Virus record (IMG/VR): IMGVR_UViG_3300032235_000224
Span: 1 to 22,137 of that record
Reading direction: 5' to 3' (one strand)
DNA: 22,137 nt
Origin: a virus
This document shows positions 3,786-11,913 of this stretch, piece after piece (within the stretch, counting starts at the first letter, position 1; each line of letters opens with the position of its first letter). The notes beneath the pieces were generated by a model. The model made no database searches. It was given only the letters and a program-made list of their open reading frames with translations, and was not told where the DNA came from. A program made the translations under genes and the position numbers.

Positions 3786-4466
3786 TTAAACGCATAAAAT
3801 TTTTTGTTTGCATTTTTCATTATGGTATCTCGCCACATTTCCTTTATTGCCTACGAAATTGCAATATGTGCATTTAATTTTCATATTATTTAGGGTTTTA
3901 AAGGCTGTAGTTTCTTTTATTTTGTTTTTGTGTTCTTTAGTCAATTTATGACCACGGTTTGCTGCTGCTGCCATTGCAAGAGCTTTAGAATTGTCCTTAC
4001 CTACATTTTTACCGATCATAGATTGACGACGTTTTTCACGAACTTCTAGTTCAGAAGATCTATTATCTCTAGTAGATAAACCAGCAAGATATTTTTCACG
4101 AACTTCAGGACGATACATTGCTTCTTTTGTTTTTTGAGAAATTTTTTCTGATATTGACAATTTTGTATTTTCGTCTGTGGTCCAGTGACCCCATTTATGT
4201 TTTCTCAAATTGTAATATTTTTTACCAAGATCTTTTTCTTCAATTAGAGACATCCATCGATGCTCTTCTTCGAACATTAGTTCTCTGTTAGAAATGTTAC
4301 TTGATAATATTTTACGTTTGAAATCAGCTGGTCTTCGTTTGTACGCCTTACGCATTCTATTTGAAGAACAGATATAACCATCAGTTTCAACACCCCAATG
4401 ACAACCTATATAATACATTTTACGTTTCTTATCAAACCAAATATAAACGAATCCATATTTATGCAT
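3786..4466 (-). CDS. GIY-YIG homing endonuclease with C-terminal zinc-finger-like motif
   Basis: This 226-residue protein has an N-terminal GIY-YIG nuclease domain: GFVYIW at 5-10 and YYIGCH at 18-23, followed by a basic stretch (RMRKAYKRR) and a glutamate-rich EEEH at 66-69 that should hold the metal-binding residue. The middle (about 100-185) is basic and carries NUMOD3-like repeats, for example around SISEKISQKTKEAM and RGHKLTKEHKNKI, which bind DNA in phage homing enzymes. The end has CxxC-x12-HxxxC (C199, C202, H215, C219), a likely zinc finger. It sits between neck genes 13 and 14 and is not itself a virion gene. It has its own sigma70-like promoter and an AAGGAG site 5 bases before the ATG. 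It probably cuts a related genome lacking the insertion, near the 13/14 junction. There are no stops or frameshifts, so it may be active. Confidence 0.9.
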   Translation of the reverse strand: MHKYGFVYIWFDKKRKMYYIGCHWGVETDGYICSSNRMRKAYKRRPADFKRKILSSNISNRELMFEEEHRWMSLIEEKDLGKKYYNLRKHKWGHWTTDENTKLSISEKISQKTKEAMYRPEVREKYLAGLSTRDNRSSELEVREKRRQSMIGKNVGKDNSKALAMAAAANRGHKLTKEHKNKIKETTAFKTLNNMKIKCTYCNFVGNKGNVARYHNEKCKQKILCV

Positions 4467-4530: not shown

Positions 4531-5271
4531 CTAACCTATCATATCCGTAGCTGGTAATGAATATGTAAAGATCATTTCCTTTTCAAGAACTTCTCTTTCG
4601 CCAGTAGCTTCATCGTAAATTTTTTGACCATTAAATGTCAAACCGCCTGGCATTTTCATACCATCAAACTTCTTAAGGTTTGTGCCCCACTGTTGCTTAA
4701 TTAAACAAGCAGCATAACGGAGCAGCCAACGATCAGACCAAGCATCAGTATAAGTTGTAGGATCGACAACCTCATAAGCTTCAACAATTATGTATTCGCC
4801 AGTATTGATACGATCCCAGTCCATGTCAATGTATAATTTATTAACATGACGATTATATCTTAGTGGTTGTTTACCGACCAAAATATACTCGAGAAACTGA
4901 ATGTGCTGCAAAGCCATATAATACGGAGTCATTGCGACAGATGTCAAAGTGTATAAGTCATTAAGAGCGATCTGATAACGAATATTGAATAGATTGTTAG
5001 TACCAAGAGCGGACCCAAGATCAAATATATTAATAACGCCAATGATATTTTCTGGCATTGTAATATATTTGTTGATTTTGTCTTGGTTAGTGACTTGATA
5101 CTTGTAATAAATTTTTTCTGAACCGTCGAAATGGTAGTCCCAATAGTATCGAAGAGCTTCATCGATCCTATCCTCTACCTGATCGTCATCGACGTTGATT
5201 TCGATAACAGGTTTACCTAATCGGCGTAAGCAATTTTCTTTAAAATCTGCTCTTGTAGTTGGTGATGCCAT
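4531..5271 (-). CDS. 13: Neck protein gp13
   Basis: This 246-residue protein starts MASPTTRADFKENCLRRLGK and continues with PVIEINVDDDQVEDRIDEAL, a signature of the gp13 head-completion proteins of T4-like cyanophages. It is shorter than the 309-residue T4 gp13. The central part carries the expected aromatic-rich segment (around residues 110-165, including DMDWDRINTGEYIIVEAYE), and the end has WLLRYAACLIKQQWGTNLKKF. It acts with gp14 after packaging to seal the portal vertex and give the docking surface for the tail. The ATG has an AGAGGA site upstream and a GATAAATA box about 23 bases before the start. In an uninterrupted genome gp14 would follow directly, but here the endonuclease gene lies between them. 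Confidence 0.94.
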   Translation of the reverse strand: MASPTTRADFKENCLRRLGKPVIEINVDDDQVEDRIDEALRYYWDYHFDGSEKIYYKYQVTNQDKINKYITMPENIIGVINIFDLGSALGTNNLFNIRYQIALNDLYTLTSVAMTPYYMALQHIQFLEYILVGKQPLRYNRHVNKLYIDMDWDRINTGEYIIVEAYEVVDPTTYTDAWSDRWLLRYAACLIKQQWGTNLKKFDGMKMPGGLTFNGQKIYDEATGEREVLEKEMIFTYSLPATDMIG

Positions 5272-5293: not shown

Positions 5294-5301
5294 TATTTAT
5301 C
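5294..5301 (-). promoter_or_regulatory. Late-promoter-like box (GATAAATA) before gp13
   Basis: Minus-strand GATAAATA overlaps the TAA stop of the preceding glycine-rich gene and lies 23 bases before the gp13 ATG. It fits the relaxed NATAAATA late box of T4-like phages and would give the neck, tail and terminase genes their own late start. Confidence 0.6.
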
Positions 5302-6217
5302 TTATAACCCATACACGAACTTCGCCACGAGCACCGTTTACTACTGAAGCGGTTGTAGAAATAACTCCGCCTCCTCCTCCCGGAACAGTAGGTCCAACTG
5401 TAGTATTTCCACCTGTGCCTCCAAAAATAGAAATTCCTGAAAGAGATCCTCCGCCAGCGCCACCGAATATAGAATTTCCTCCTCTACCAAGATTACCACC
5501 ACCACCGCCACCATAAATTGAAGCACCACCAGTCCCAGTTGCAGTGTTAGTACCCCAAGTAGTTCCGCCTCCACCACCAAAAGTAGAAACGCCTCCACCA
5601 CGTGCGTCGTTTACACCGTTTGCGCCACCTAAAGGCGCTCCTCCGTTAACTGATCCATTAACACTACCACCTACTCCTAAAACTCCACCACCACCGCCTC
5701 CATCATCTTGACCGCCTCCTCCGGCTGGACAACCACCACCTCCATATACTATATAAGATCCAAATAGAGTATTTCCTCCATTAGCGCCTGCACCACCAAT
5801 AGTTGAACCTGTACCACCTAAACCTACTGTAACAGAAACTGTGTTTGTGAGAGAAGAAAGAGGAGTTGTGAAGGTAAGAAATGCTCCTCCACCGCCACCA
5901 CCGCTGCCAGCGCCAGCCGCAGTACCACCACCACCACCAGCCCACATCATAATAAATGCTGAAGAATTAGCATCTATACCAGCTGGTTTTGTCCATGTTC
6001 CATTTGCAGTAAATATTTGAACATTAGCTATACTACCAGATATACCACCAGCAAAAGGAACTCCCCCAATATTAAGTAAAGGAGTAAAAATAGATTGAGA
6101 ATTTACGATTGAATTACCAACAGTTATTTGGGTGGTGTTAACAGAAACTACACCAGTAGTAACAGTTGAAGATGTGATAGAATTTACTGTAGCGTTAGAA
6201 ATTGATAAGCTTGACAT
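5297..6217 (-). CDS. Glycine-rich tail fibre-like adhesin (paralogue A)
   Basis: This 306-residue protein has two parts. Residues 1 to about 62 are Ser/Thr/Asn/Val-rich with VNTTQITVGNSIVNS, the same beta-repeat style (VNTT.I.VGN..VNS) seen in the 773-residue fibre protein. From about residue 67, VQIFTANGTWTKPAG begins a glycine-rich domain that continues with long GGGGG tracts to the end, closing with GARGEVRVWVIR. Such domains occur at the tips of phage tail fibres, and the polyglycine composition recalls the gp38-type adhesins of T-even phages, where receptor binding is carried by glycine-rich loops. It is the last of three tandem paralogues, starting one base after the previous stop. Its 3' end shares an exact 24-base match with the neighbour. 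Attachment as a fibre tip is inferred, not shown. Confidence 0.75.
   Translation of the reverse strand: MSSLSISNATVNSITSSTVTTGVVSVNTTQITVGNSIVNSQSIFTPLLNIGGVPFAGGISGSIANVQIFTANGTWTKPAGIDANSSAFIMMWAGGGGGTAAGAGSGGGGGGAFLTFTTPLSSLTNTVSVTVGLGGTGSTIGGAGANGGNTLFGSYIVYGGGGCPAGGGGQDDGGGGGGVLGVGGSVNGSVNGGAPLGGANGVNDARGGGVSTFGGGGGTTWGTNTATGTGGASIYGGGGGGNLGRGGNSIFGGAGGGSLSGISIFGGTGGNTTVGPTVPGGGGGVISTTASVVNGARGEVRVWVIR
5307..5330 (-). repeat. 24-base direct repeat, copy 1 (3' end of paralogue A)
   Basis: These bases are identical to 6235-6258, 928 bases away. They encode the last residues RGEVRVWV of the glycine-rich protein. The flanking coding sequence is similar but not identical, so this is a stretch of high identity between paralogues, suggesting recent duplication or gene conversion. 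Confidence 0.85.
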
Positions 6218-6218
6218 T

Positions 6219-7160
6219 TTACGTTACCTTAGTTACCCATACACGAACTTCGCCACGACCACCATTCATCGCTGTAATATTTGTAGGATTACTAACTCCT
6301 AATGTAGCACCTCCACCAGCAGGACTTAATGCAGAAACAGAACTATTACCGCCTCTACCAGCAAATATAGAGTTACCACTAACTCCTGAAAAAGTGCCAC
6401 CACCACCGCCATATATAGAATTGCCGCCTCGACCAGAAGAAGCAGCAGCGCCACCACCACCGCCATATACAGAATCTCCACCATTGCCACCTGCAGAAGT
6501 GCCTCCACCACCACCTCCAAATGTCGAATCACCTCCTGTAGCTCCAGCAGCTCCTCCTAAAGGCGAGCCGCCGATGCTACTTGCTCCTGAAGCAAACCAT
6601 CCAGCTCCAGCTCCACCTGCTGATAATCCTGATTGACCACCATATGCTGAAATAGAAAACGATGAATTCGACCAAAATACACTATTTCCACCAAATGTTG
6701 ACGCAGAAGAACTATTACCACCTAAACCTGCAGATCCAACAAAAACATTGCAAATAGCATTACATTCACCAGCAAGTTTATTTACAATAACACAAGATCC
6801 ACCACCACCAGCCCCTGCTAGGTTTGGAGATGCACTAGAATACCCACCGCCTCCACCGCCCCATAACATAATGGTTATAATATCATTAGCATTTGTTCCT
6901 GCTGGTTTTGTCCATGTTGTCCAACCGGGAGTTGTAAATGTTTGATAATTTGTGTTTCCACCATAAACAGTAATTGTACTGATAGTTGTACCGTTTAGAG
7001 TTATCAAGTTGGCAGATACTGCGGTAGAATTTACTAAAGTTTGAGAAATAGAATTGCCAACTAAAATAGCAGTAGAATTAATGACTACGTTCGAACCTAC
7101 TCTAATAGTATTTGCTGATATTGAATCTGAAACTAGTGATGTTGCGTTTACTGTTGACAT
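6219..7160 (-). CDS. Glycine-rich tail fibre-like adhesin (paralogue B)
   Basis: This 313-residue protein has the same architecture as its neighbours. The N-terminal 70 or so residues have the GSNVVINSTAILVGNSI repeat style. A junction follows with FTTPGWTTWTKPAGTNAND (about residues 74-92), then a glycine-rich domain with repeated FGGGGGG and YGGGGG units, and a closing GGRGEVRVWVTKVT. The repeated SVYGGGGG / SIYGGGGG / SIFAGRGG units suggest stacked polyglycine-type strands. The start codon is fused to the stop of the upstream paralogue as TAATG, so translation is coupled. A role as a receptor-binding fibre tip is an inference from composition and from the fibre cluster around it. Confidence 0.75.
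   Translation of the reverse strand: MSTVNATSLVSDSISANTIRVGSNVVINSTAILVGNSISQTLVNSTAVSANLITLNGTTISTITVYGGNTNYQTFTTPGWTTWTKPAGTNANDIITIMLWGGGGGGYSSASPNLAGAGGGGSCVIVNKLAGECNAICNVFVGSAGLGGNSSSASTFGGNSVFWSNSSFSISAYGGQSGLSAGGAGAGWFASGASSIGGSPLGGAAGATGGDSTFGGGGGGTSAGGNGGDSVYGGGGGAAASSGRGGNSIYGGGGGTFSGVSGNSIFAGRGGNSSVSALSPAGGGATLGVSNPTNITAMNGGRGEVRVWVTKVT
6235..6258 (-). repeat. 24-base direct repeat, copy 2 (3' end of paralogue B)
   Basis: Identical to 5307-5330 and located at the same place in the paralogous gene. The third paralogue (stop at 7160) encodes a similar end, RGEIRVYTL, but has diverged at the DNA level. Confidence 0.85.
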
Positions 7161-8071
7161 TATGGTACAATCCTTAATGTATAAACTCTAATTTCTCCTC
7201 GACCGCCAGCGCCTCCACCAGAAGTGTTGGCACCACCACCACCGCCAGGAGCATTACCATTTATTGAAGCAACTAAGTTTTGTGTTTCTCCTCCAGCCCC
7301 ACCGTAAACAGAAGATCCTCTTGGAAACCCACCACCACCCCCACCATATATTGAAGCGCCTCCACCTGCAGTAACATTGTAAGAGCCTCCGCCACCTCCA
7401 TAAACGGAACTTCCTGCAGTTGTATTTGTAGTATTTGCACCAGCTCCGCCACCAAATGTTGAAAATGCACCAGCGGTATTACCACCTAGCGGTCCACCAC
7501 CAGAAGTTGATGTTCCGGAAGAAAACCAACCACCACCGCCTGGACCACCAGTTGCTGTACCGTATTGTGTGCTATTGGCACCACCACCACCATAAACTAT
7601 AAATGTATTACTGTTAAACCCAGAAAACGCTCCAGGATTTCCTGTAGCACCACCCGTACCTCCTGCACCAACATATAAAGAAACAGAGCTGCCTAATTGG
7701 TTTGTCATATAATAAGCAAAGGCAAATCCACCACCTCCTGCACCACTTATGAAAGAAGCATTGCCTATACCTCCTCCGCCACCACCCCACATATGCACAA
7801 TAACAAGTTCATTGCCTGTAGTAGCCCAAGAAGGTTTAGTCCAAGTTCCATCACCGACAGTTGTAAATATTTGTGTATTAGTCGCTTCAACATTAAAAGA
7901 ACTAAAAGATGTTCCGTTTACAGTAACAGACGATACATTACTCACATTTCTCAATTGTGTGTTACCAACAGATAAAGAGGCTGTATTAATGATCGTATTA
8001 CCCACATTAATTTGTGAGTTCGCTGTTAATGTGTTGTTAGATTGAAGTGACGAAACTTGTAATATTGACAT
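7160..8071 (-). CDS. Glycine-rich tail fibre-like adhesin (paralogue C)
   Basis: This 303-residue protein is the first of the three tandem paralogues. The N-terminal region (1-60) has NSQINVGNTIINTASLSVGN, the fibre beta-repeat style. TQIFTTVGDGTWTKPSW (about 67-83) marks the start of the glycine-rich domain, with motifs such as HMWGGGGGG, SSVYGGGGG, ASIYGGGGGG and a closing RGEIRVYTLRIVP. It has its own AATAAATA box upstream and an AAGG site before the ATG, so a late transcript probably starts here and covers paralogues C, B and A. The TctC-like gene immediately upstream is separated by 40 bases. The exact function is unknown; a fibre-tip adhesin is the best reading. Confidence 0.75.
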   Translation of the reverse strand: MSILQVSSLQSNNTLTANSQINVGNTIINTASLSVGNTQLRNVSNVSSVTVNGTSFSSFNVEATNTQIFTTVGDGTWTKPSWATTGNELVIVHMWGGGGGGIGNASFISGAGGGGFAFAYYMTNQLGSSVSLYVGAGGTGGATGNPGAFSGFNSNTFIVYGGGGANSTQYGTATGGPGGGGWFSSGTSTSGGGPLGGNTAGAFSTFGGGAGANTTNTTAGSSVYGGGGGSYNVTAGGGASIYGGGGGGFPRGSSVYGGAGGETQNLVASINGNAPGGGGGANTSGGGAGGRGEIRVYTLRIVP

Positions 8072-8101: not shown

Positions 8102-8117
8102 TAACTATTAGTTAAAT
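8099..8117. repeat. 19-base perfect AT-rich palindrome at the end of the TctC-like gene
   Basis: The sequence is ATTTAACTA-T-TAGTTAAAT, 9 bases on each side of one central base. It spans the stop codon of the TctC-like gene and touches the AATAAATA box. As RNA it could form an 8-pair hairpin with a 3-base loop. There is no T-run after it on the minus strand, so it is not a classical terminator. It could be an operator or an mRNA-end hairpin, or chance in AT-rich DNA. Confidence 0.5.
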
Positions 8118-9032
8118 TGGATTTCTGTCCTCTTTTTCTTCAGAAATTCTTTTTAAAATTTCTTGTTCTCTAACACAAGTACGTGGCATAAAGTTTCTCT
8201 TAATAATTCCTTCGTCTAGATCAGAGTTATTGCACAATTTAAAAATTAAAGGAGAAAGAGCCTTTATCAATTTAACATCGTTTTTCGGTATAGCAAAAAC
8301 TGATAAAGACTCATATGTTAATTCTTCAACACCCAATTCTTTCGCAGTAGGTATATTTGGTAAAGAAGGAGCTCGTGTTTCATTTAATATAGCAATAGGT
8401 CTCAACGATGGTAAATCGACAATATTTCTTATCGTATAATCAATTTCTCCACTCAATAGTGCCTGAGCTATCTCATTAGGCTGACGATAGTCCAAAAATA
8501 TAGTTTTATTCCTCAAGTTAAATTTATTAGAAAATAATTTACCCAAATAAAGACTAGATGTCGAAGAAACATTATTACCATTAAAAACTTTATCTTTTTT
8601 TTGTAAATTTTTAACAAACTCTTCAAAATTTTTAGCATCATTATTAGGCGAAACTAAAACAGCAAAAATTCCTGTGCTAACACCACTAACAAAATAAAAG
8701 TCGTTTTCGCTCCAATTTTTTTGTTTTTCACCATTTCTAGTTACAAATGTTGTCGTAAATGTTGATATAGGTCCGAACCAAAGAATACTTCTGCCAGCTC
8801 TAGAATATTCTAAAGAACTAACTACAGCAGTTTCGCCATTAGCTCCAGGAATATGTGTGTATCTTAATCTATATTCTGATTGCATTTCGTTAAGTGCACG
8901 AATAGCATGTACTGCATTTTGGGAAATAGCAGTAGAATTATTATATCTGCTAATAACATCTACATTTTCAAACGCAAAACTGCTGCTGATTGACAACAAA
9001 CTAATAAACAAATAAGTCAAAATAAATTTCAT
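8112..9032 (-). CDS. TctC/Bug-family periplasmic substrate-binding protein with signal peptide
   Basis: This 306-residue protein begins with a clear signal peptide, MKFILTYLFISLLSISSSFA, with likely cleavage after A20. The mature part matches the tripartite tricarboxylate transporter receptor family: IPGANGE at 61-67 (family GAGG-like loop), DFYFVSGVSTGIFAVLVSP near 111-129, LLSGEIDY at 192-199 (family LLGGQVD), and RAPSLPNIPTAKELGV at 220-235 (family R.P.LPDVPT..E.G). In bacteria these proteins capture carboxylates or other small organic molecules in the periplasm and hand them to TctA/TctB. No TctA or TctB is in this window. The start was moved from a TTG at 9053 to the ATG at 9032, which has AGAGGA upstream and begins the signal peptide directly. 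It lies inside the fibre cluster and uses the same AT-rich codons. It may be an auxiliary metabolic gene comparable in logic to phage PstS. The ligand is unknown. Confidence 0.85.
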   Translation of the reverse strand: MKFILTYLFISLLSISSSFAFENVDVISRYNNSTAISQNAVHAIRALNEMQSEYRLRYTHIPGANGETAVVSSLEYSRAGRSILWFGPISTFTTTFVTRNGEKQKNWSENDFYFVSGVSTGIFAVLVSPNNDAKNFEEFVKNLQKKDKVFNGNNVSSTSSLYLGKLFSNKFNLRNKTIFLDYRQPNEIAQALLSGEIDYTIRNIVDLPSLRPIAILNETRAPSLPNIPTAKELGVEELTYESLSVFAIPKNDVKLIKALSPLIFKLCNNSDLDEGIIKRNFMPRTCVREQEILKRISEEKEDRNPI

Positions 9033-9049: not shown

Positions 9050-9268
9050 TCAATTAAAACCAAAGCTCATAAATGATGCCATCATTGCTGGACCACCATC
9101 TAAAGAATCGTAAGTAATTACAATCACACCTTGCGCCCCTTGACCGTTTTGAGCGTATATTAAACTAGCAGATCCACCACCACCGCCATAATTACCACCT
9201 GAACCTGCATAATAAACTTGTGGTGGAGGAGGTGGATCTGGGTCTGGTGGGGGAGGAGGTGAAGTCAT
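9050..9268 (-). CDS. Mini glycine-rich protein with polyproline N-terminus
   Basis: Only 72 residues: a proline/aspartate run at 4-16 (PPPPPDPDPPPPP), then YYAGSGGNYGGGGGSA, then GAQGVIVITY and a short tail ending FMSFGFN. The last two parts resemble the C-terminal end of glycine-rich tail fibre proteins, where GxxGxVVITY closes the domain. It therefore looks like a detached fibre-tip fragment with a proline linker, either a small separate protein or a remnant of a larger gene. It has AAGG upstream of its ATG. It starts 17 bases after the preceding glycine-rich gene and ends 17 bases before the TctC-like ATG. The open frame and usable start argue that it is expressed. Confidence 0.6.
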   Translation of the reverse strand: MTSPPPPPDPDPPPPPQVYYAGSGGNYGGGGGSASLIYAQNGQGAQGVIVITYDSLDGGPAMMASFMSFGFN

Positions 9269-9285
9269 GCTATAATACCTTTCTA

Positions 9286-10347
9286 TTAAACATCAGAGTA
9301 ATACGAACCAGCACCACCGCCACCAGATCCAACTATAGTAATAGTAGATGGAACATATTCTTTTCTAGTAGTAGTTGTGCTGTAATTTGTAACAGTAGAA
9401 ACTGTTGTCCAGTTAACGTTATCTGAAGAAACATCAAGTGTCCAAGAAACTGGATCTCTATTTGACACATCTTCTGCAGTTGCCCAAGCATAACCATTAA
9501 ATGTTTTTGCCGAACCTAAATCAATAGTAAAGTTCCAGGGAGAAGTTGTCACACCAGTATAATACTTAGAGTTTAAATTACCATCAATCAAATTATTCGC
9601 CCCTTGTTCTGCAATACTAGCTGCTCTTGAAGATGTAATTGTAGAACCTGCCATATTTAAGACAGTATTAGAATTTATCAGTATAAACTCTGAAGCTTGC
9701 ATATCACTACCCGGAGAACGCAAAGCTGTAACAGACCATCTAACATATCTGAATGTTTGAGAGCTAATTGAAAACCCTACAACGTTAGAAGATAGATCTA
9801 AACCAGCGCCAGCAACTTGGCTTGATCTTCCTTGAGAACTGACTGCAACGCCTCCACCACCACCAGCATTGTTAGCGGCTCGGCCACCATTAGCATGGGC
9901 TTGAACTGTCATCGTACCGTTAAACCCGTTAGCACCATTGCCTGCTGGTCCACCAGCACCACCACCGCCGCCACGTTGAACACCACCGTTACCACCAGAA
10001 AATTTAATAGTGCCAACAGAAGAAGCAGCTGAACCACCAGGAGCACGTGCTCCTGAAGAAGTGGCTCGACTACCGCCAACAGCTGTTAACGTTGAAGCAT
10101 TTGCAAACTGAGTCGTACCACCATCAGTATTAACTGCACCGCCTGCACCTATGGTTATAGCTATAGTTTGCCCAGGAGTAGCTGTAAAATTATTTATTCT
10201 TGAATAAGCTCCACCACCGCCACCACCAGTTAAGTGCCAACCACCGCCCCCACCGCCAATCGCTTCAATACGGTTGTTAGAAGAGTTCCAATCGAAGGGT
10301 ACAACCCAAGTTGTACCAGAAGTTATAACTATAGTTTTTTGAGGCAT
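9286..10347 (-). CDS. Glycine-rich fibre protein with F5/8C (discoidin)-like domain near the C-terminus
   Basis: 353 residues. Positions 1-30 (MPQKTIVITSGTTWVVPFDW) open a glycine-rich domain covering about 30-183. At about 199-333 there is a discoidin-like (F5/8 type C) carbohydrate-binding domain: FRYVRWSVTALRSPGSDMQ, an ASEFILI strand, NLIDGNLNSKYYTG, WNFTIDLGSAKTFNGYAW and SWTLDVSSDNVNWTTV. All are typical of this fold, where the loops grip sugars. A short STITIVGSGGGGAGSYYSDV then returns to the glycine-rich style. The discoidin domain thus seems to be inserted near the end of a glycine-rich tip protein. It probably binds host surface glycans. It starts 3 bases after the stop of the upstream small gene. 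Confidence 0.8.
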   Translation of the reverse strand: MPQKTIVITSGTTWVVPFDWNSSNNRIEAIGGGGGGWHLTGGGGGGAYSRINNFTATPGQTIAITIGAGGAVNTDGGTTQFANASTLTAVGGSRATSSGARAPGGSAASSVGTIKFSGGNGGVQRGGGGGAGGPAGNGANGFNGTMTVQAHANGGRAANNAGGGGGVAVSSQGRSSQVAGAGLDLSSNVVGFSISSQTFRYVRWSVTALRSPGSDMQASEFILINSNTVLNMAGSTITSSRAASIAEQGANNLIDGNLNSKYYTGVTTSPWNFTIDLGSAKTFNGYAWATAEDVSNRDPVSWTLDVSSDNVNWTTVSTVTNYSTTTTRKEYVPSTITIVGSGGGGAGSYYSDV

Positions 10348-10350
10348 TAT

Positions 10351-10593
10351 TTACACCCTAGTAAATATTAAATTGTCTTCGTCTGGATTACTACTATGAT
10401 ATCCTTTTTCCGGATTCCATTTAGTTTTATTGATTTGTATTATACTAATCATCTTATATAAACCATGATAAGAATAAAATGGTTCTGGCATAGGAACGAG
10501 ATAATACCCTTCTATCGTATCATTTTCACTGCACATAATTATATTTTCAACAATTTCAGTTTCTTTATTGACTACTGCGTATCTATCAGTCAT
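10351..10593 (-). CDS. Small protein of the fibre cluster, unknown function
   Basis: The chosen start at 10593 gives 80 residues beginning MTDRYAVVNKETEIVENIIM. A GGAAGG site lies 8 bases before it, and the overlap with the upstream PP-loop gene is 8 bases. An earlier ATG at 10620 would overlap by 35 bases and add nine residues. The N-terminus (YAVVN.ET.IVENII) resembles a recurrent small protein found next to phage tail fibre genes, where such proteins are often fibre assembly helpers. The rest is acidic and tyrosine-rich, with WNPEKGY near residue 60. I do not recognise a defined family with certainty. The position between two fibre-related genes is the best clue. Confidence 0.6.
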   Translation of the reverse strand: MTDRYAVVNKETEIVENIIMCSENDTIEGYYLVPMPEPFYSYHGLYKMISIIQINKTKWNPEKGYHSSNPDEDNLIFTRV

Positions 10594-11464
10594 CAACCAA
10601 ACCTTCCCAAACTCCGACATTGTTTCTTAATCTAATAGACTCTCTAGAAGTGCTAAGGAAATAATCTATCACTTCTTGTTTATTTTCAAAATTAGGGTGT
10701 TTAAACATGTGAAGTGGTGGTTTTCTGCCTGTTTCTAAATATATCCAATATTTTACAGGCGCCATTAATTCTCCACCACCATATTCGTAAGCTGTTTGTA
10801 TTCTATATTTATCTATTTCTTCGGGTGTTTTACCAGATTCTAACATATTGTTTATATGAATGTTCCACAAACACTTATGACATATATTACAAGGAACTAA
10901 ATTGTTTTGGTTATCTTTAAAAGGGAAAGAACAACTAAAAGTTTTTTCTAAAATGTGTTTTGGTAATTGGGTTATAGCGTGAGCTTTAGAATAATTTTGT
11001 ACATAGTCGTGAGTAGCTAATGGGTTCCAAAGCTCTCCCCTCGTAATCAATTTATTAAATAATCTTTCGCCAGCTATCGAAACAGGAGAACGATCGTAAT
11101 TCTTTAATATTTTTTGACCTGCTTGTTCCCAGCTATGACCTGTAACTATTCTATCAAAAATATTATTGTTCAAATAAGGAGCGGCGAAATTGATAAAAAA
11201 TGTATAGAAGGAATTCAATTCATCAGTAATTTCGCTCTTATTACATTTTTTCATAATAAAATTGAAATTTCTTATCTTTTTCAATTCTTCTACCAAAATT
11301 AGACATTTTTCGTATAAGAAAAGGTCTCCTTGGAAAAGCATTCCTTCACGATCTGGAACATAGAGAAATACACAGGTTAGCTCGTCGTCTGTTTCTGTTA
11401 ATAATTTCCAAGCTATATACGTAGAATCTATGCCACCACTAAATGCTAACAGAGATCTTTTCAT
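10586..11464 (-). CDS. PP-loop ATPase, QueC-like (7-cyano-7-deazaguanine synthase family)
   Basis: 292 residues from the ATG at 11464; a TTG one codon earlier is less likely. The N-terminus has the PP-loop LLAFSGGIDSTYIAW (SGGIDS at 9-14), which binds ATP for adenylation. A later SCSFP...CNICHKC arrangement (C178, C192, C195, C198) matches the zinc site of QueC (a cysteine, then CxxCxxC). QueC makes preQ0, a precursor of queuosine and of 7-deazaguanine DNA modifications in some phages. This protein is longer than typical QueC (about 220-230) and I cannot find the family's usual SGYPDCR-like segment, so its substrate may differ. No other queuosine gene is in the window. Its start is fused to the preceding fibre gene stop (TGATG), and it lies within the fibre cluster. 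Confidence 0.75.
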   Translation of the reverse strand: MKRSLLAFSGGIDSTYIAWKLLTETDDELTCVFLYVPDREGMLFQGDLFLYEKCLILVEELKKIRNFNFIMKKCNKSEITDELNSFYTFFINFAAPYLNNNIFDRIVTGHSWEQAGQKILKNYDRSPVSIAGERLFNKLITRGELWNPLATHDYVQNYSKAHAITQLPKHILEKTFSCSFPFKDNQNNLVPCNICHKCLWNIHINNMLESGKTPEEIDKYRIQTAYEYGGGELMAPVKYWIYLETGRKPPLHMFKHPNFENKQEVIDYFLSTSRESIRLRNNVGVWEGLVDD

Positions 11465-11913
11465 CAAACGGAACCATCAATAATAACAGAGTTAGCAGCA
11501 TGCTCAAATACAGAAAGCGAAGCCCAGCGCTGTGAAAGCGTGTAGTTACCACTACGAGAATTTAATGTTACGCCAGCTGCATTACTAACGACAACGTTTC
11601 CAGTATTAATCATATAAACCATACATCTGAAACCTACAGGCAGATCTGCTGGAACTGTGATAGTTGTCGCGGCAGTATTAGAAACTGTGAGTACAGAACC
11701 GCTGTCAGCATTTGTTAATGTATAGTTAGTTGTTAAAGCTCTAACGAACAAATTAGAACTGGTAATGCTACCGTTAACTGACATGTTAGTTGAATTAACC
11801 GTGGTTAAGTTGGTGCCGCCAGCAACGATTATGTAAGAATTAGATCCGGCAAATTGAATTCTGTTATTACCAGTAGATTCAAGATGAATGTTTGCAACTA
11901 ATAATGTACTCAT
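11464..11913 (-). CDS. Short tail fibre-like protein
   Basis: 149 residues without glycine tracts. The start MSTLLVANIHLESTGNNRIQ follows the MSTL.V..I pattern of the other fibre genes here. The second half, NYTLTNADSGSVLTVSNTAA, then TTITVPADLPVGF, a VYMINTGNVVVSNAAGVTL strand pattern and an ending with SVIIDGSV, matches a common phage fibre C-terminal domain (beta structure with an xTVP..LP.G core). It is preceded by AGAGGA at good distance from the ATG. The gene directly follows the XkdW-like small protein gene (16-base gap), a pairing often seen for fibre proteins and small helpers. Confidence 0.7.
   Translation of the reverse strand: MSTLLVANIHLESTGNNRIQFAGSNSYIIVAGGTNLTTVNSTNMSVNGSITSSNLFVRALTTNYTLTNADSGSVLTVSNTAATTITVPADLPVGFRCMVYMINTGNVVVSNAAGVTLNSRSGNYTLSQRWASLSVFEHAANSVIIDGSV

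Follow-up and report, generated by a model that had tools for sequence, protein, structure and literature searches.

The window, by which we mean the whole 22,137-base stretch of DNA analyzed here, from a virus of aquatic bacteria, carries on its minus strand, in order, terL, gp16, gp15, gp14, a homing-endonuclease-like ORF, gp13, and then glycine-rich and tail-type ORFs (Table 1). This gene order identifies the window as the late region of a T4-like myovirus. The homing-endonuclease-like ORF (positions 3786 to 4466; phrog_314) lies between gp13 and gp14 and is 96 to 98% identical in the related contigs L002, L021, and L039; since this exceeds the 83% identity of the adjoining gp14 in L021 and L039, the ORF appears to have spread recently. 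Beyond gp13, three successive glycine-rich ORFs of ~300 aa each (5297 to 8071) resemble paralogs and probably encode tail-fiber tips.

The gene under study follows these ORFs. Its frame runs from an ATG at 9032 to a stop at 8112 to 8114 with no internal stops, as the first-pass annotation had claimed of an uninterrupted ORF, and the ORF was confirmed as real, far above chance. A TTG lies in frame at 9053 and an AGGA stands ~10 nt 5′ of the ATG; a scan for the T4 late promoter (TATAAATA) found no site immediately 5′ of the gene. The N terminus, MKFILTYLFISLLSISSSFA/FE, scored as a good Sec signal in a composition heuristic, in agreement with the signal peptide of ~20 residues proposed from the sequence at first reading. 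The placement of the gene inside a tail-fiber or late cluster likewise held, given flanks made up of tail-type ORFs and T4-like gp13 to gp17. Among these flanking ORFs, the protein with the F5/8 type C domain is a candidate receptor-binding part.

TABLE 1 Features of the window, with the evidence for each
Feature	Positions	Strand	Evidence
T4-like gp13 (head-tail adaptor)	4531..5271	-	phrog_211, 147 bits; locus anchor in relatives
Glycine-rich tail-fiber-type ORF	7160..8071	-	Directly downstream of TctC-like gene; composition
Type A TctC/Bug-like solute-binding protein	8112..9032	-	306 aa; Pfam, model, and fold matches; phage clade
Sec-type signal peptide coding region	8970..9032	-	Residues ~1 to 20; sequence and composition heuristic
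Small glycine-rich ORF	9050..9268	-	Directly upstream of TctC-like gene, whose ATG lies 18 nt past its stop (18-nt gap)
Glycine-rich tail-type protein with F5/8 type C (galactose-binding-like) domain	9286..10347	-	PF00754 and PF21722 above cutoff; PHROG tail matches
QueC-like PP-loop ATPase (PPloop3 family)	10586..11467	-	293 aa; SGGIDS motif, C...CxxCxxC

Family, fold, and phage relatives of the TctC-like protein

The window protein matched the Pfam TctC family (PF03401) at 37.3 bits (E = 2.9 × 10−9; cutoff, 27; residues 112 to 308) and had no match in PHROG or NCBIfam; together with several phage TctC-like members that fall under the Pfam cutoff, this amounts to an annotation gap. A profile of the window's kind, hereafter type A (16 full-length members), matched 11 solved TctC/Bug sequences in the PDB (best E = 1.3 × 10−13) and reached 99.8% in a profile-profile comparison with bacterial TctC. 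The AlphaFold2 model (pLDDT 82; pTM 0.77) is a two-domain type II structure whose first 17 PDB matches were TctC/Bug proteins only. On realignment, every listed TctC/Bug entry gave a Z score of 26.1 to 28.9 over 274 to 283 residues, compared to 15.4 for the next-best fold and ~15 or less for other binding proteins. The family-like blocks quoted in the first-pass annotation were also found in the protein. Thus, both the TctC/Bug identity and the periplasmic-binding fold claimed there stood up to the profile and structure checks, and we conclude that the window protein is, as predicted from profile and model, an exported TctC/Bug-type two-lobed solute-binding protein.

The nearest terL relatives of the window (78 to 100% identity) are uncultivated viral contigs, and gp13 is present in 61 related loci. 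In two of these contigs, L039 and L036, a type A protein is encoded upstream of gp13 and is only 26 and 21% identical to that of the window, respectively, although terL is 91 and 79% identical. Sequence change or turnover at the TctC locus on the gp13 side thus outpaces that of the structural genes by a wide margin. Identity between proteins of the same locus ranges from 20 to 36%, and a further type A protein, found in L088 via a DNA pattern, is 35% identical. L039, L036, and L049 also encode, on the opposite strand, a second kind of phage TctC-like protein (type B; 27 proteins), and an alignment of this kind retrieved 29 contigs, many with type A as well. The second type A copy of L111, at L111:10258-11004, is shorter than the others (248 aa), matched the profile in two pieces, and may be decaying.

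Searches of viral contigs with a single sequence or with the first alignment returned few homologs, and 50,697 GenBank phage records held no convincing type A or B homolog (matches with E values of 0.2 to 1 were disregarded). In genome contigs, a narrow pattern scan gave five loci, none matching type A by tblastn, and no type A member on a bacterial chromosome was found.

The phylogeny against bacterial members, one of the checks proposed with the first-pass annotation, was run with eleven bacterial TctC proteins, all from plasmids. Type A formed one group, a separate phage clade (support, 100/99), as did type B (100/97), and the two joined different parts of bacterial TctC diversity. This topology suggests at least two acquisitions of TctC by phages, read from a tree with thin bacterial sampling and long branches. 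Export signals, called for both types by the composition heuristic alone, were predicted for every type A protein (16/16) and for 26/27 of type B. All 16 type A proteins carry a PGAxG-like block and a C-terminal cysteine pair (Cys267 and Cys286 in the window protein); type B has an AANYLYN block and lacks the pair. The structure prediction for type B was poor (pLDDT 61) and was left out of the analysis.

None of the 43 type A and B proteins carries the domain-1 pincer motif PFxAGGxxD; the bacterial proteins of the tree have GGxxD or something very close to it. In almost every TctC protein, this motif is what grips the carboxylate of the ligand (PMC5812351; PMC8556258); it is near universal with known exceptions, and Bug proteins with such substitutions have been noted in review (PMC5812351). 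Because the motif is missing throughout, the window protein is best classed by sequence as a divergent branch of the TctC superfamily, not a canonical TctC receptor. Pocket positions vary among type A proteins as well, and in view of both features the ligand or the function may differ.

Linkage of TctC-like genes to PP-loop ATPase genes

In the window, a PP-loop gene lies 1.5 kb upstream of the TctC-like gene, with two ORFs in between. Its product matched the PPloop3 profile at 204 bits and phrog_1550 (QueC-like) at 37 bits; the SGGIDS loop and the C...CxxCxxC cluster were seen in the alignment, and QueC and nitrile synthetase were weak PDB matches. Against Pfam QueC it reached 14.4 bits, under the cutoff of 22, and it is termed QueC-like only.

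The association is closer in the relatives. For 11 of the 16 type A members, the gene directly 5′ encodes a ~400-aa PP-loop ATPase in the same orientation, and the two genes mostly overlap by 10 to 19 nt, suggesting translational coupling. The pair is present twice in L109, L111, and L115. In the T4-like relatives, type B is divergent from gp13, 22 to 60 nt away, and two 2OG-Fe(II) oxygenase genes come after it; in other tailed phages, it lies directly 3′ of a gene for a ~270-aa QueC-like PP-loop ATPase. Types A and B also occur together within the same phage.

The reverse test took 80 loci picked solely by the ~400-aa PP-loop family. A TctC-like gene lay within the flank in 51 of them and was adjacent in 47, in a scan whose seeds came from TctC-bearing loci and which included near-duplicates; across 1,000 gene-order shuffles of these loci, the count averaged 18.6 and never exceeded 28. 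Both gene orders were seen (36 pairs with the PP-loop gene first, 20 with the binding-protein gene first). No TctC-like gene was within reach in the remaining 29 loci, and among the more distant loci (L172 to L222) one was present in 22/51. Of 38 loci picked by the QueC-like family of the window (PPloop3), 20 had a TctC-like gene, adjacent in every case. Part of this linkage is accounted for by shared location in hypervariable islands, but the adjacency above shuffles is not. We conclude from these gene neighborhoods that the TctC-like genes of many phages are tightly linked to genes for predicted PP-loop ATPases.

At least seven sequence groups can be distinguished among the linked TctC-like proteins. 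Profile-profile comparison showed all of them to be homologous to bacterial TctC (98 to 100% probability), and in a wider, weakly resolved tree they do not form one clade. Some of these proteins, encoded by very large phages in contigs of 120 to 350 kb, keep the canonical GGxxD, with TctC scores as high as 143 bits. DctP-type (TRAP) binding proteins also occur in some PP-loop clusters. Because the pairing repeats with different receptors, the recurring unit is an acid-binding periplasmic protein with a PP-loop enzyme, which we take as the main functional clue. In two large phage contigs, DctP-family (TRAP) proteins (L175:6198-8141 and L187:6238-7176; 170 to 200 bits) lie between the PP-loop and TctC-like genes, so that two receptor families are arrayed in one island.

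Genes for a fatty acid hydroxylase, Amidoligase_2, and a methyltransferase recur in the islands. The fatty acid hydroxylase (PF04116) was seen beside PP-loop genes at L036:1547-1966, L039:10-306, L049:8-436, and L107:10214-10657. Separately, ORFs for CsgG-like lipoproteins lie near gp13 at L103:4950-6877, L159:10363-11155, L161:9893-10696, and L164:10408-11185; they resemble the curli genes that methylophage Melnitz is reported to encode (PMC9004378).

Proposed role of the receptor and PP-loop pair

The best explanation, to which we give a probability of roughly 0.4, is that the window gene does not serve carbon uptake on its own but supplies half of a capture-and-activate module that spans two compartments. 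The TctC-like protein would be produced together with the T4-like late proteins and exported to the host periplasm, where during infection it would capture a small organic acid or some comparable amphiphilic metabolite. The captured compound would be handed to a host transporter for import. In the cytoplasm, the phage PP-loop enzyme (here 10586-11467, the proposed functional partner) would adenylate the carboxylate of the compound or of its product, and the activated carboxylate may then be used to form an amide, a nitrile, or a related group in a modification specific to the phage. N-type PP-loop enzymes, including QueC, asparagine synthetase, and NAD synthetase, activate carboxylates. This chemistry favors the capture-and-activate module, as do the fold, the export signals, the adjacency to PP-loop genes in both orders, the recurrence of DctP, and the presence of Amidoligase_2 in the clusters. 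It is weakened by the missing pincer motif of types A and B and the variable pocket positions within type A, by the lack of a TctA in 30 phage records, by the 1.5-kb gap in the window, and by the 29/80 loci without a TctC-like gene.

The first-pass annotation had suggested that the phage may redirect host carbon uptake. The TctC/Bug identity and the phage setting in that interpretation were upheld; it missed the set of PP-loop-linked phage proteins, and with them the likely mechanism changes. Carbon uptake for the host is possible, as is a host TctAB partner, but the idea lost ground with the absence of PFxAGGxxD from 43/43 type A and B proteins and of a TctA membrane subunit from 30 phage records, many of them fragments. 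On this view, the window gene would be a nutritional auxiliary gene like pstS that boosts or retargets host TctAB for carbon or nitrogen, with the PP-loop neighbor incidental. Phage pstS is an accepted precedent (PMC6359870), most bacterial TctC proteins are orphans that use distant TctAB genes (PMC5812351; PMC8556258), and the Pfam and fold match of the window protein fits. What is looked for in an AMG of the PstS kind was found here: recurrence in independent phages, a host-type homolog, and a phage gene neighborhood. Nevertheless, the pincer motif is divergent in both types, and an incidental neighbor leaves the two-order adjacency and the DctP proteins in the same clusters unexplained. We regard this explanation as unlikely.

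A periplasmic effector without transport, namely, a decoy, signal modulator, or superinfection-exclusion protein on a binding-protein scaffold, is quite improbable. BctC does act on BctDE as a signal modulator, and TctC proteins can have signaling roles (PMC5812351). Loss of the canonical ligand loop, divergence fast enough to leave 20 to 36% identity within one locus, the cysteine pair conserved in 16/16 type A proteins, and the co-occurrence of types A and B within the same phage would all suit such an effector. However, other phage groups keep the canonical motif beside the same PP-loop family, and a decoy needs no cytoplasmic enzyme partner.

We consider it very improbable that the binding protein serves a pathway modifying tail fibers or surfaces by helping to deliver a substituent for fibers, lipids, or glycans. 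The gene does lie between fiber genes in the window, in other phages TctC-like genes adjoin c17, a small ORF that recurs in the tail region, and the clusters are rich in enzymes (2OG-Fe(II) oxygenases, fatty acid hydroxylase, methyltransferase, and radical SAM); yet the signal peptide would part the protein from fibers assembled in the cytoplasm, and the jumbo-phage clusters are not evidently at fiber genes. An assembly chimera of host tctC with phage DNA was rejected as having a negligible chance: we found no evidence supporting it, the flanks are phage tail-type ORFs, and homologs form a phage-only clade in many independent contigs, several at the same locus beside gp13 to gp17, which sustains the original view that the gene is phage encoded.

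The capture-and-activate module can also be read more broadly. Several kinds of phage (T4-like, other tailed, and very large) may repeatedly have assembled a scavenging and biosynthesis route from a receptor, TctC-like and sometimes DctP-like, and a PP-loop enzyme; we hold this extension to be doubtful. In either form, the PP-loop enzyme and the receptor make a concrete, testable pair. If the proposal is true, the auxiliary-gene concept widens from a boost in uptake to the capture of precursors for phage-specific chemistry.

Comparison with known systems

Phage Bug-like proteins are already on record. Five proteins of uncultured Caudovirales in BFVD/UniProt (A0A6J5LDG7, A0A6J5M1T7, A0A6J5L7K0, A0A6J5T247, and A0A6J5T9X7), named "Bordetella uptake protein" or PBP2_Bug_TTT, share the fold of the window protein at 13 to 26% identity; A0A6J5LDG7 may be type A. 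Their names are automatic, and we found no study of them. Earlier hints of phage-borne transporter parts are a tctA-like gene on SUP05 viral contigs, known from a domain hit only (eLife 2014, PMC4164917), and "tricarboxylate transport" genes in a norB/nirK myovirus island, known from a supplementary-table annotation (ISME J 2020, PMC8115048). The former is a membrane part, unlike the binding protein of the window, and neither report covers the solute-binding family or the PP-loop linkage. In the open-licence literature, neither the phage TctC families nor their PP-loop link turned up, and the module appears undescribed there.

What is known of phage-encoded nutrient receptors comes mainly from PstS, a receptor for phosphate. 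The proteins described here belong to another receptor superfamily, which is present in numerous aquatic phages, appears to have been acquired repeatedly, and is associated with a specific class of ATP-using enzymes; this pattern points to an organic-acid economy of infection overlooked by standard annotation. The comparison with phage PstS drawn in the first-pass annotation holds insofar as the PstS of T4-like cyanophages is also a periplasmic nutrient receptor in a T4-like phage without a membrane transporter. The receptor families are unrelated, however, the ligand class is different, and PstS is not known to be linked to a PP-loop enzyme.

With QueC and the N-type PP-loop ATPases, the window enzyme has the SGGxDS loop and the C...CxxCxxC cluster in common; unlike QueC, it falls under the Pfam cutoffs and neighbors a binding protein rather than a known deazaguanine gene. 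The closest known counterparts of the window protein are the bacterial TctC/Bug solute-binding proteins (PF03401; BugD, Bug27, TphC, MatC, and AdpC), with which it shares the fold, full-length profile homology, a signal peptide, the PGAxG block, and orphan genomic status. In contrast to these proteins, types A and B are encoded by phages, are without PFxAGGxxD, and are linked to PP-loop genes rather than to TctAB, and type A has an extra conserved C-terminal cysteine pair.
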